Source of the DNA: Halorussus rarus
GTDB lineage: Archaea > Halobacteriota > Halobacteria > Halobacteriales > Haladaptataceae
Length of the DNA: 64,000 nt
NCBI RefSeq assembly: GCF_003369835.1
Contig: NZ_QPMJ01000001.1
Coordinates: forward strand, 310,001-374,000
Direction: 5' to 3'
In this document: positions 47,945 through 52,892 of the stretch, piece by piece
How positions within the stretch are numbered: position 1 is the first letter of the stretch
Layout of the letters: the number at the start of each line of letters is the position of its first letter
Position numbers and translations under genes: made by a program
Notes under the pieces: model-generated
Told to the model about the DNA's origin: nothing
The model's input: only the letters and a program-made list of their open reading frames with translations
The model's database searches: none

Positions 47945-48676
47945 TTACACGGAACCGGACGGAGTCGACGAGTCGTCGGCTCCGTCGGGTGCGGGATCGA
48001 CCAGGACCGTCGCGTCGCCCTCGACGATGGTCTCGCCGTCGGGCCGCTCGACGGCCACGGAGAGTCGGTATCGGTCGTCGCCGAGGGACTCGACGATGCG
48101 ACACGTCGCGGTGAGCCGGTCCCCGACGCGCGCCGGTCCGAGGAACGACAGCTCCTGGGAGAGGTAGATCACGGTCCCCGGCAGCGCCGCCAGCGCCGCG
48201 CTGGCGAGCCCCGAGACGAGCGCGCCGTGAGCGATGCGCCCGCCGAACCGCGTCCCCGCGGCGTACGACTCGTCGAGGTGGAGCCGGTTGGTGTCGCCGC
48301 TTGCGTCGGCGAAGCGCCGGACGTCCTCGTCCGAGACGGTCTTCGAGAACTCGACGTAGTCGCCGACCGACAGGTCCTCCCGGGCCCCGACCGAGCGCTC
48401 TAACTCCCAGTCGGACCTGGCGTACGCGAGCGACTCTGCCTGCGCGGGTTCGACCGGATCGTCGAGCTCGCGAGCAGGCAGCTCGGCGTCCTCCGAGGCG
48501 GTCTCGGCGACGCCGTCGGGGAGCGTCGCCAGCGCGACGCGGTTCGCGTTGGCGGCCGCGGTGAACGACAGTTCGAGCGCCCGCGTCCACGCGGTGGTGA
48601 ACTCCCGGAACGGGTTCGCCCACGGGCTCTCGAACGGCATCCCCCAGGGACCGCTCGTGCGTTTCGTGTCCTCCAT
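47945..48676 (-). CDS. MaoC-type hydratase, PHA-linked
   Basis: A 243-residue protein whose C-terminal half (about 105-225) is a MaoC/PhaJ hydratase domain with ASGDTNRLHLDESYAAGTRFGGRIAHGALVSG, so the catalytic Asp and His are kept. The N-terminal part (about 1-100) is helical and Ala-rich and is not present in simple PhaJ proteins; it might target the enzyme to the PHA granule. It diverges from phaR, a common arrangement in haloarchaeal PHA clusters. A minus-strand ATAAGG box (48701-48706) predicts a leaderless ATG at 48676. Confidence 0.85.
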   Translation of the reverse strand: MEDTKRTSGPWGMPFESPWANPFREFTTAWTRALELSFTAAANANRVALATLPDGVAETASEDAELPARELDDPVEPAQAESLAYARSDWELERSVGAREDLSVGDYVEFSKTVSDEDVRRFADASGDTNRLHLDESYAAGTRFGGRIAHGALVSGLASAALAALPGTVIYLSQELSFLGPARVGDRLTATCRIVESLGDDRYRLSVAVERPDGETIVEGDATVLVDPAPDGADDSSTPSGSV

Positions 48677-48923
48677 GGTACAGTACGACGTGCCCACCCG
48701 ATAAGGGTCCTGTGCCCGAGGACAGGTGCCGCTCCGAAGCCAAATGGGGGGCGCAAACAGGCCTAAATTCTATCTACCGGAAGGAGAATCGGTTTCGTCG
48801 GTCGGACAGGGCGTTCCGGTCGCGGAGTTGAATGGTGACGAGCGGTAAAGCGCTCCACTCTCCGGTAATGAAATCCATCTGGGAGTCATCTTTATAGGTG
48901 TTCCCGCCCTCTCTCTTACCGGG
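48677..48923. promoter_or_regulatory. Divergent maoC-phaR control region
   Basis: This 247-nt region carries a minus-strand box for maoC (48701-48706) and TTTATAG for phaR (48891-48897), about 27 nt before 48921. Three copies of TACCGG-type sequence occur: 48775-48780, its inverted form at 48862-48867, and 48917-48922 at the start of phaR. They are candidates for a regulator site, possibly PhaR itself. Confidence 0.45.
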
Positions 48924-49250
48924 ATGACGGGGGGAGACGACGACGCCACGTGGCCAGCGGCCGCGTTCGCCGAACAGATGCAACACGCCAGCGAGGAGGC
49001 GATGGAGCAACAACAGGAGCTGTTCCGCCGCTGGCTCTCGGCGAGCACCGGGGGAGACCGGACCGAAGACCTCTCGGAGTACGCGGCCACGAGCGTCGAG
49101 ACGGCCACCTTCAAGACGCGCGTCCAGAGCGGCGGCCGGATCAGTATCCCCGACGTGGAGCGCGAGGCCCTGGACATAGAGGAGGGGGACATCGTCCAGG
49201 CCATCGTCCTCCCGGTGACCCCGCCCAACGGTGATTCAAATGTCGAGTAA
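48924..49250 (+). CDS. phaR: PHA-associated AbrB-type regulator PhaR
   Basis: A 108-residue protein with an N-terminal amphipathic helical region (about 10-45, Gln/Glu-rich) and a C-terminal AbrB/SpoVT DNA-binding beta domain (about 62-100, KTRVQSGGRISIPDVEREALDIEEGDIV). In haloarchaea such proteins bind PHA granules with the helix and repress the phaRP promoter with the AbrB domain, releasing it when polymer is made; that mechanism is inferred from homologues. phaP starts inside its 3' end, so both are made from one mRNA. Confidence 0.88.
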   Translation: MTGGDDDATWPAAAFAEQMQHASEEAMEQQQELFRRWLSASTGGDRTEDLSEYAATSVETATFKTRVQSGGRISIPDVEREALDIEEGDIVQAIVLPVTPPNGDSNVE

Positions 49251-49791
49251 TGATCAGACACGGAACCCGATGAACGCGATGTTCGAGATGCAGCGAAACG
49301 CCATCCAGCAGAGCCAGCAGATGATGCAGCAGGGCATCGACATGCAGCAGCGCATGACCGAGTCCATGATGCGGAACAACCTGAGCTCGGGCCACAACGC
49401 CCAGCGGCAGGGGACCGAGCTGGCCCGCAACTGGATGGACGCCTACTTCCGGACGCTCGGGACGATGTTCGGCCGGGGAGACGCCTCCGAGGTGAGCGAG
49501 TCGCTCCGCGAGCAGTTCGAGGAGTTCAACGACGCCCAGGACGACGCGTGGGACTCGTTCGAGGACAGCCTCGACCAGGCGATGGACGCCTACGAGGACC
49601 TCAACGAGAGCCAGAAGGAGCTCATCGACCGGTCGTTCAACTCGTTCTTCGAGATGCAGCGCGAGACGGGCGAGCGGGTCGCCGACGCCGCCGAGCAGAT
49701 GGAGCGACAGGCCCAGGAGAGCCAGTCCACGACCGGCTCGTCGAGTTCGTCGAGTTCGACGAGCTCCTCGGGCTCGTCGAGTTCCTCGTAG
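49240..49791 (+). CDS. phaP: PHA granule-associated phasin PhaP
   Basis: A 183-residue structural protein of the PHA granule. It is Gln/Met-rich at the N-terminus (about 8-45), then a long helical region with charged heptads, and a Ser-rich tail (about 160-183) encoded by TCGTCGAGT-type repeats. Phasins coat the polymer and set granule number and size. The ATG at 49240 overlaps the 3' end of phaR by 11 nt; the GTG at 49231 would add three residues and is less likely. It sits between phaR and phaE. Confidence 0.9.
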   Translation: MSSNDQTRNPMNAMFEMQRNAIQQSQQMMQQGIDMQQRMTESMMRNNLSSGHNAQRQGTELARNWMDAYFRTLGTMFGRGDASEVSESLREQFEEFNDAQDDAWDSFEDSLDQAMDAYEDLNESQKELIDRSFNSFFEMQRETGERVADAAEQMERQAQESQSTTGSSSSSSSTSSSGSSSSS

Positions 49792-49837: not shown

Positions 49838-50374
49838 ATGTCAGAATCCAGTACAGCGACCGAGCGACCGGGGGAGTGGCCGTACGACGACGCGATCTTC
49901 GACGCGCTCAGGGAGTCGGTCGAGGCGCAGGGCGAGTTCGTCGACCGGTGGGCGGCCGCGATGCGCGACGCGAGCGACGAGGGGCACCTCTGGACGGACG
50001 CCGCGGAGGGGTACGCCCGGGCCTACGAGGTGTGGATGGAGGCGTCCCAGCGGACGTTCGAGCGGTCGACCGACCTGATGGCGGGCGAGGAGGTGTCGAT
50101 GGAGGAGTTCCGCGATCTCTGGCTCGACGCGGCCAACGACGCGTTCAAGGAGCTGGCGTCGTCGGACGCGTTCGCTGCCGCGCTCGCCCAGAACGTGGAG
50201 GGGCTCGACGTGATGCAGGACGCCGAGGACGCCGCCCAGACGGCGCTCCACAGCTACGGCTTCGCCACCGAGGGCGACGTGGTCGAGGTCGGCGAGCGGC
50301 TGGTCGAGCTCGAACGCCGGCAGCACGAGGTCGAGCGCAAGCTCGACCGGGTGCTCGACGCGGTGGAAGAATGA
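49838..50374 (+). CDS. phaE: Class III PHA synthase subunit PhaE
   Basis: A 178-residue, helical, acidic partner of PhaC that has no catalytic residues and is required for synthase activity. It shows WMEASQRTFERSTDLMAGEEVSMEEFRDLWLDAANDAFKELASS in successive blocks and a C-terminal coiled coil with RLVELERRQHEVERKLDRVLDAVEE, as in haloarchaeal PhaE. Its stop TGA overlaps the ATG of phaC (ATGA), implying coupled translation. Confidence 0.92.
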   Translation: MSESSTATERPGEWPYDDAIFDALRESVEAQGEFVDRWAAAMRDASDEGHLWTDAAEGYARAYEVWMEASQRTFERSTDLMAGEEVSMEEFRDLWLDAANDAFKELASSDAFAAALAQNVEGLDVMQDAEDAAQTALHSYGFATEGDVVEVGERLVELERRQHEVERKLDRVLDAVEE

Positions 50375-51933
50375 GCGAAGCGACCGACGACGCGGGCCCC
50401 GACGAGCCGCGCCGGCTCAGCGCCCTGGACGCGATTTCGGAGCTGGAGCGCCAGTCGTGGGAGAACGCCGGGGAGTTCGTCGAGACGATGACGCTCGCGC
50501 CCGAGCGCATCCAGGACGCCGCGCACGTCGACGTGGGGCAGACGCCCAACGAGGCGGTGTACTCGGAGAACAAGCTGGACCTGCTCCACTACGAGCCGCG
50601 GGCCGACGAGACGTACGACGTGCCCATCCTCCTCGTGTACGCGCTCATCAACAAACCCTACATCCTCGACCTCCAGCCCGACCGGAGCGTCGTCCGGCGA
50701 CTCCTCGAGGCGGGGTTCGACGTCTACCTCATCGACTGGGGCGAGCCCTCGACCCTCGACACCTCGCTGTCGCTGTACGACTACGTCGAGCGGTACGTCG
50801 GCAACTGCGTCGACGTGGTCCGCGACCGCGCGGACGTGGACGCGCTGAACCTGTTCGGCTACTGTATGGGCGGGACGATGAGCGCGATGTACGCCGCCCT
50901 CTACCCCGAGAAGGTGCGCAACCTCGGGCTGATGGCGACCGGCCTCTGCTACGACGGCACCGGCGGCGTCCTCGAACGCTGGGGCGGCGAGCAGTACGAC
51001 CCCGGCAAGCTCGTCGAGACGTTCGGGAACGCCCCCGGCGGGCTACTGAGCGTCGGGTTCGCGATGATGGACCCCGTCCAGAACTTCCTCACGAAGTACC
51101 TCCGGCTGTACGACAACCTCGAGGACGAGGAGTTCGTCGAGAACTTCGTCCGGATGGAGCGGTGGGTCCGGGACTCGCCCGACGTCGCGGGCGAGGTCTA
51201 CCGGGAGTTCATCGAGTACATCTACCAGGACAACCTGCTCATGCAGAACGAGCTCCGCCTGAACGGTCGCCACGTCGACGTCGGGGAGCTCGACATGCCG
51301 ATACTCCAGCTGGTCGCGAAGCACGACCACCTGGTCCCGCCGTCGGCGAGCGTCCCGTTCAACGACGTCGTCCCGAGCGACGACGTGACGACCATCGAGT
51401 CGCCGACCGGCCACATCGGTCTCTCGGTCTCCTCGAAGGCCCACGCCGAGGTGTGGCCCCAGGCCTGCGAGTGGTTCGCGGCCCGGTCCCAGCCCGACGC
51501 GGAGGACGGTCGGGAAGCCGACGCCGAAGCGGCGGCGGCCGAACGCCGCGCGGAAGCCGGGGCCGAGGCCGCGGCCGAATCCGGAGACGGTGGCGCCGAC
51601 CCCGAAGGAGCCGCAGATACGGCCGAGGCGACCGAAGGCGGGACCGACGAGGCGGCCGAGACCGAGTCGGGCGAACCGGCGGCGACGACCGAACCGGCGG
51701 ACGTGCGGGCCGGCACCGCCCCGGAAGGCAGCAGCCTCGAGGCCATCTCCGGCATCGGCCCGGCCTACGAGGAGCGACTCGCCGAGGCGGGGTTCGAGAC
51801 GGTCGAGGACCTTGCCGGGGCCGACTCGGTCGACCTCGCCAGGCGGACGACCCTCTCGGAGAAGCGCGTCCAGCGGTGGATCGAGCAGGCCGAGGCGCTC
51901 GTCGAGCGCCGCGGCGAGTTCGACGACGGGTGA
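50371..51933 (+). CDS. phaC: Class III PHA synthase PhaC with C-terminal HhH module
   Basis: Polymerises (R)-3-hydroxyacyl-CoA. The 520-residue protein has an alpha/beta-hydrolase core (about 60-375) with the synthase triad: Cys165 in FGYCMGG, Asp319 in AKHDHLVPP and His348 in PTGHIGL. The core is followed by a long acidic Ala/Glu-rich linker (about 375-452) and a helix-hairpin-helix domain (about 453-512; LEAISGIGPAYEERL, then LSEKRVQRWIEQAEAL). The last module resembles the C-terminus of the acidic protein at 17023-17823. Such an extension is not part of the catalytic domain and could bind DNA or protein. A palindromic T-rich site follows (51950-51979). Confidence 0.93.
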   Translation: MSEATDDAGPDEPRRLSALDAISELERQSWENAGEFVETMTLAPERIQDAAHVDVGQTPNEAVYSENKLDLLHYEPRADETYDVPILLVYALINKPYILDLQPDRSVVRRLLEAGFDVYLIDWGEPSTLDTSLSLYDYVERYVGNCVDVVRDRADVDALNLFGYCMGGTMSAMYAALYPEKVRNLGLMATGLCYDGTGGVLERWGGEQYDPGKLVETFGNAPGGLLSVGFAMMDPVQNFLTKYLRLYDNLEDEEFVENFVRMERWVRDSPDVAGEVYREFIEYIYQDNLLMQNELRLNGRHVDVGELDMPILQLVAKHDHLVPPSASVPFNDVVPSDDVTTIESPTGHIGLSVSSKAHAEVWPQACEWFAARSQPDAEDGREADAEAAAAERRAEAGAEAAAESGDGGADPEGAADTAEATEGGTDEAAETESGEPAATTEPADVRAGTAPEGSSLEAISGIGPAYEERLAEAGFETVEDLAGADSVDLARRTTLSEKRVQRWIEQAEALVERRGEFDDG

Positions 51934-52041: not shown

Positions 52042-52152
52042 ATGGGGGTTGACCGAACTACCACACACCCAGGAGGACCGCCTACGGAACTAGCGACGCC
52101 CCGAGCCGACAGGCTCGACCCAGCGCGCGTCGTCGGGGGGCTACCGCGATGA
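52042..52152 (+). CDS. Possible 36-residue ORF coupled to phaB
   Basis: Begins MGVDRTTTHPGGPPTELATP and ends in TGA that overlaps the ATG of phaB as ATGA. Its ATG coincides with the transcription start predicted from the box at 52011-52018, so it would be leaderless. Against coding, its third positions are clearly less GC-rich than in neighbouring genes. It could be a translated leader that couples ribosomes to phaB, or a microprotein. No domain is recognisable. Confidence 0.4.
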   Translation: MGVDRTTTHPGGPPTELATPRADRLDPARVVGGLPR

Positions 52153-52892
52153 GCGTCGAGGAGAAGACGTGCCTGGTCACGGGGGCCTCCCGCGGCATCG
52201 GGAGCGGCGTCGCAGAGGAACTCGGACGGAGCGGAGCCAACGTCGTCGTCAACTACGTCTCCTCGGAGGACGAGGCCTACGACACCGCCGAACGGATCGA
52301 GTCCGAGGGCGGCACTGCGACCGTCGCGCAGGCCGACGTCTCGGACCGCGAGGCGGTCGACGAACTGGCCGACGAGGTCCACGAGGCGTTCGGGTCGATC
52401 GACGTGCTCGTCAACAACGCGGGCATCACCGTCGACCGGAAGTTCGAGAACATGACCCGCGAGGACTGGGACCGGGTGATGGACGTGAACCTGGGCGGGA
52501 CGTTCAACTGCACGAAGGCGTTCTACGACGACATCGAGTCGGCCGACGAGGGCCGACTCGTCAACATCTCCAGCGTCGTCGGCCAGCAGGGCAACTACGG
52601 CCAGGCCAACTACGCGGCGACCAAGAGCGGCATGTTCGGCTTCACCCGGTCGCTGGCCCTCGAACTGGCCGGGTCGGGGTCGACCGCGAACTGCGTCGCC
52701 CCCGGCTTCACCCAGACCGACATGCTCGCGGAGGTCCGCGAGGACATCCGCGAGCGGATCAGGGAGAAGATCCCGCTCAACCGCTTCGCCGAGGTCGAGG
52801 ACGTGGCCTGCGCGGTCCGGTTCCTCGCCAGCGAGGAGTCGTCGTACATGACCGGGCAGGTCGTCAGCGTCAACGGCGGCATGGAGTGGTGA
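52149..52892 (+). CDS. phaB: Acetoacetyl-CoA/3-oxoacyl-CoA reductase
   Basis: Short-chain dehydrogenase that reduces 3-oxoacyl-CoA to (R)-3-hydroxyacyl-CoA for PHA. The 247-residue protein has the cofactor loop TGASRGIG (12-19), the NNAGITVDR strand, Ser in NISSV, and the active-site Tyr-x-x-x-Lys in QANYAATKSG. A C-terminal MTGQVVSVNGGMEW completes the fold. It follows phaC by 215 nt with its own promoter. It matches haloarchaeal PhaB in position and length; the cofactor, probably NADPH, cannot be set from sequence. Confidence 0.9.
   Translation: MSVEEKTCLVTGASRGIGSGVAEELGRSGANVVVNYVSSEDEAYDTAERIESEGGTATVAQADVSDREAVDELADEVHEAFGSIDVLVNNAGITVDRKFENMTREDWDRVMDVNLGGTFNCTKAFYDDIESADEGRLVNISSVVGQQGNYGQANYAATKSGMFGFTRSLALELAGSGSTANCVAPGFTQTDMLAEVREDIRERIREKIPLNRFAEVEDVACAVRFLASEESSYMTGQVVSVNGGMEW

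Follow-up and report, generated by a model that had tools for sequence, protein, structure and literature searches.

A helix-hairpin-helix domain is a standard C-terminal part of haloarchaeal class III PHA synthases and recurs on phasin-like proteins

The phaC gene and its neighbours

The window, i.e. the entire stretch of 64,000 nucleotides from Halorussus rarus that was analysed, carries a phaC gene at 50371-51933 on the forward strand. The translation of 520 amino acid residues contains no internal stops and was compared with the NCBIfam model TIGR01836 for class III PhaC. The score of 404.7 bits, exceeding the cut-off of 365.3, bore out the first-pass annotation of the gene, and the catalytic triad proposed there, Cys165-Asp319-His348, showed no variation in 61 aligned PhaCs and was likewise upheld. 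The predicted model of the full-length protein was similar to solved PhaC structures. Class III synthases are paired with PhaE, and a phaE-type gene for a small haloarchaeal-type synthase subunit (49838-50374, forward strand) overlaps phaC by 4 bases; its match to PF09712 is weak (E=7e-4) and below the cut-off. Among the class III PHA synthases of haloarchaea, the product of 50371-51933 is an ordinary one.

The pha cluster around phaC comprises, besides phaE, a gene for an AbrB-type regulator, a phasin-like gene and a gene for a phaB-like reductase. The AbrB-type DNA-binding protein (48924-49250, forward strand; TIGR01439, E=2.5e-4, below the cut-off) is probably the phaR of the cluster, judging by its position. 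It is followed by a phaP-like phasin without a helix-hairpin-helix (HhH) domain (49231-49791, forward strand), which has a weak match to Phasin_2 below the cut-off. On the other side of phaC, the phaB-like acetoacetyl-CoA/3-oxoacyl reductase of the SDR type (52149-52892, forward strand) matched TIGR01830 with 297.9 bits, over the cut-off. A MaoC-like (R)-enoyl-CoA hydratase is encoded on the reverse strand at 47945-48697; its matches to the NCBIfam MaoC-type hydratases are below the cut-offs, and it is possibly phaJ.

An acidic linker and an HhH domain form the C-terminus of PhaC

Behind the catalytic domain, an acidic linker and an HhH domain at about residues 453-512 had been proposed, and both were confirmed. 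The linker was assigned to residues 375-450 (51493-51720, forward strand) from composition, identity, length and pLDDT. Among 61 PhaCs it contained 38% Asp and Glu on average and ranged in length from 2 to 123 residues. The HhH domain was assigned to residues 451-512 (51721-51906, forward strand) with Pfam, AlphaFold and Foldseek, where Pfam HHH_5 (PF14520) matched the residues 456-508 with 51.3 bits (cut-off 27, E=1.6e-13). When the domain alone was modelled with AlphaFold, four helices were obtained with block pLDDT values of 91-96. In the model of the whole PhaC, a confident catalytic core was followed by the disordered residues 404-454 (pLDDT below 50) and a confident C-terminal domain.

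The structure prediction, which had been suggested as a check of the HhH fold, gave a confident fold of the RadA/Rad51 N-terminal type. With Foldseek, the RadA/Rad51 N-terminal domains were the best matches (rmsd 1.0, TM 0.74 of the query); the probability was 1.00, but for a chain this short the E-value reached only 0.01-0.05. NusA AR2 and other domains were also among the Foldseek matches. Similarly, the sequence profile of the PhaC HhH matched L32e, Rad51/RadA and NusA.

The PhaC C-terminus may be pictured as a flexible acidic tether with a compact RadA-N-terminal-type HhH at its end. Since the synthase is located at the surface of the granules, such a tether would present the HhH as a docking module, tying the synthase or the granule to a partner. 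If this partner is a protein, it might be a second copy of the HhH, PhaE or some factor that is shared. The mean pairwise identity across haloarchaeal PhaCs was 47% for the HhH versus 23% for the linker, and we count it for docking that the HhH is conserved while the linker drifts and varies in length. The dN/dS values, determined with the closest relative on few codons, were 0.43 for the HhH, 0.23 for the core and 0.27 for the linker and indicate purifying selection, nothing beyond.

Alternatively, the HhH could be a structural tail without an external partner, helping the synthase to fold, to dimerise or to stay soluble in high salt. A fixed contact to the core is hard to reconcile with a disordered linker of such variable length. 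The long C-terminus of the Haloferax mediterranei PhaC is reported to be indispensable for activity (PMC2939530), which would suit a structural tail and is also compatible with a function within the synthase complex. In the same paper, H. mediterranei PhaC2 supplied with the C-terminus of PhaC3 was still inactive, arguing against a tail that simply supports the enzyme. We consider a solely structural function improbable.

The HhH domain is present in nearly all haloarchaeal PhaCs

The proposed search of haloarchaeal PhaCs for the module was run with the catalytic core alone as the query against 195 Halobacteriales genomes; among the matches, 110 PhaC-like genes were retrieved. The HhH was present in 103 of them. 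It follows that the domain belongs to the ancestral make-up of this synthase subtype, and the peculiarity that the first-pass annotation had implied for the tail of the window PhaC did not hold. One of the seven genes without HhH is truncated by a contig end; the other six are paralogues that lack PhaE, three of them sharing 54-60% identity with the window PhaC and three being distant (35-44%). In 80 further named PhaC loci the HhH was found throughout, in a set biased by a query that included the HhH. The two bacterial class III PhaCs compared have no HhH, and both stop at the catalytic core. As haloarchaeal PhaCs carry the HhH tail as standard, its role bears on the whole group.

A phaE homologue adjoins 99 of the 103 HhH-bearing PhaCs of the survey and none of the six complete paralogues without HhH (99/101 versus 0/6 when two contig-end cases are dropped). 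The absence of a neighbouring PhaE from all six would be in line with the structural tail. However, placed on the tree, the association comes down to only 3 independent changes (p=0.5 by a sign test), so that the striking table is not evidence for the link, and the presence of the HhH was rejected as a proxy for PhaE partnership.

One phaC clade has no adjoining phaE (L161, L164, L168 and L357, the last on a plasmid of Halorussus salilacus). The plasmid-borne H. salilacus gene adjoins a MaoC-type gene. Within this clade, the PhaC of L168 has lost the HhH, whereas its 94% identical relative L164 retains it.

The same HhH subtype is found on an acidic protein and on phasin-like proteins

The window encodes a second protein of this kind, the acidic protein P0002 (17023-17823, reverse strand), which has the N-terminus MGLLTKLKSLLG and ends in an HhH of the same subtype (HHH_5 at residues 211-264, 51.4 bits, E=1.5e-13). 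Its close resemblance to the PhaC C-terminus, which had been noticed by eye, was borne out by 55% identity over 58 residues without gaps (BLASTP E=4e-15) and is far above chance. A profile made from PhaC HhH domains only was then compared with the proteins of this genome. The acidic protein and PhaC scored 86.4 and 85.9 bits, and lower scores were obtained for TopA (60 bits), RadA (47 bits) and others. When a tree was built from 160 HhH domains, TopA and RadA formed groups of their own at 99% support. The PhaC, acidic-protein and phasin domains were intermixed; 57 columns are too few to resolve their order. In the same set, a Tyr or Phe follows hairpin 1 in 60/61 PhaC, 56/56 acidic-protein and 13/17 phasin domains and in none of the TopA and RadA domains.

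It had been suggested to test whether the module tracks with the acidic protein. Matches to the acidic protein were found in 182 of the 195 Halobacteriales genomes, some of them being the HhH of PhaC itself. Among the 18 genomes of the same genus that were searched, all have the acidic protein and 3 have PhaC. By hand reading, with five spurious hydrolase matches set aside, the acidic protein occurs in about 82 of the 93 genomes that lack PhaC. Tracking with PhaC was therefore rejected, and without co-occurrence the acidic protein is not a dedicated partner of PhaC. The acidic HhH protein with the MGLLTKLKSLLG start is near-universal in haloarchaea.

Phasin-like proteins that end in the PhaC-type HhH subtype were found as 15 distinct proteins in 14 genomes (L302/L308 at G007:C1:762637-763479 and 14 more in L309-L312, L314-L317, L338 and L340-L344). 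Two of the phasin-like proteins, in G111 and G121, have tandem HhH domains. The N-terminal part of one HhH phasin is homologous to the window phasin at 49231-49791 (BLASTP E=1e-16), and from this homology the HhH phasins would be located on granules. PhaC is present in 14/14 genomes with an HhH phasin (p=1.5e-4 for a random draw, phylogeny ignored). No mention of HhH phasins was found in the literature searched.

Thus, the same HhH subtype occurs on unrelated proteins, namely a phasin family, the near-universal acidic protein and the linker of a CheA, and we count this spread for a docking function. The latter is a CheA-type chemotaxis kinase with the domain within an acidic linker (L296, G002:C38:64400-66300). 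Two adjoining open reading frames with an HhH each lie beside an apparent phage capsid-type protein (L300, G005:C2:145800-147700), and a zinc-ribbon membrane protein has an HhH-like domain at its N-terminus (L307, G002:C38:108600-110600).

Haloarchaea are used for bioplastic production, and to our knowledge the mechanism by which archaea position and inherit their storage granules is not known. The HhH phasins offer a second, independent handle on this question. One docking subtype, carried by nearly every PhaC and by the HhH phasins, might allow these proteins to dock to each other or to a common partner, as a granule-organising system separate in origin from bacterial PhaM, PhaF and PhaH. 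We regard this as unlikely; if true, it would be an archaeal granule-organising system.

DNA or protein as the possible partner of the HhH domain

Another possibility is a sequence-independent attachment of the HhH to the nucleoid, by which the synthase itself would spread the granules along the chromosome, as do the bacterial PhaM, PhaF and PhaH. A nucleoid link is already in print for the H. mediterranei PhaC (PMC12028471), and Caulobacter PhaH places granules by an HhH (PMC13052382). The closest fold also belongs to a DNA-binding domain, as the RadA/Rad51 N-terminal (HhH)2 domain binds dsDNA (PMC1964548).

The residues of the domain are divided on this point. The G-h-G of hairpin 1 is present in all PhaC sequences, which is in favour of DNA contact. 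In hairpin 2 the G-h-G is found in only 4 of 164 PhaCs, the window PhaC not among them. DNA-binding (HhH)2 domains have two G-h-G hairpins, and here the second one is degenerate, which argues against DNA binding. In a hand alignment with RAD51, the positions of Lys40 and Lys70 are occupied by Arg in about 65% and 84%, respectively, again in favour. Against it, Asp or Glu is mostly found in this alignment at the positions of Lys73 and of Lys39, which we take to be a DNA-contact residue. The DNA-contact lysines of RAD51 used for the comparison were from PMC1964548 and PMC10990931. Haloarchaeal RadA is likewise without several of these lysines. Only few basic residues are conserved in the PhaC HhH family.

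The net charge of the PhaC HhH is always negative, with a mean of -9 and a range from -14 to -3, and this also speaks against a DNA tether. However, most haloarchaeal HhH domains are acidic, including those of DNA-repair proteins (UvrC -2, LigA -5, Hef -7 and RadA -10), and the acidic charge therefore does not exclude DNA. Since the DNA-repair domains of this genome are likewise acidic, the overall charge was rejected as a test of DNA binding. From the sequence features, DNA binding by the PhaC HhH is possible; nucleoid attachment through it is plausible by analogy to Caulobacter PhaH, but we consider a DNA tether less likely than not and rank it second, behind docking to a protein.

For a protein partner, the aromatic residues were considered. 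A Tyr or Phe follows hairpin 1 in 162 of 164 PhaCs and a Trp is found in the last helix in 163. Because this aromatic pair and one Arg are conserved on an acidic domain, we consider a protein partner likelier than DNA. The nearest folds include both a DNA-binding domain (RadA/Rad51 N-terminal) and a protein-binding one (NusA AR2 with SuhB). A shared protein partner appears at least as likely as nucleoid attachment, and a protein-docking role is slightly favoured. In conclusion, we tentatively propose that the HhH tail, standard in haloarchaeal PhaC, serves as a docking module at the end of a flexible tether, with probably a protein as its partner.

Comparison with known systems

The PhaC HhH has been described before. 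A 2025 paper reports an HhH at the end of the H. mediterranei PhaC and suggests a link to the nucleoid, citing Caulobacter PhaH (PMC12028471), so that our finding for PhaC is confirmed but not new. Compared by the description given there, the H. mediterranei protein (AF-I3R9Z4), from a different genus than the window organism, is likewise a class III synthase with a disordered C-terminal region and an HhH end. In the H. mediterranei PhaC3 (WP_004060696) we found the HhH at residues 484-538. The additions of the present analysis are the breadth of the HhH distribution among PhaCs and the HhH phasins.

For PhaH, the HhH phasin of Caulobacter crescentus, DNA binding and granule positioning were reported (PMC13052382). 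Compared by this description, PhaH is a granule protein with a C-terminal HhH as in PhaC, where the location on the granule is expected from the PhaC family. In contrast to PhaC, a synthase, PhaH is a bacterial phasin. By analogy, the HhH phasins can be regarded as its archaeal counterpart.

The RadA/Rad51 N-terminal domain has the same fold as the PhaC HhH (rmsd 1.0 over 59 columns; profile E=3.7e-8), but the PhaC-type HhH forms a separate sequence group with the Tyr and Trp hallmarks. The best PDB sequence match of the PhaC HhH profile was the N-terminal extension of the haloarchaeal ribosomal protein L32e (E=1.2e-9), which differs in being part of a ribosomal protein and in retaining the G-h-G of hairpin 2. 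NusA AR2, which was solved with its protein partner SuhB, is similar in fold (TM 0.67/0.77), whereas its sequence similarity to the PhaC HhH is weak (E about 1e-3).
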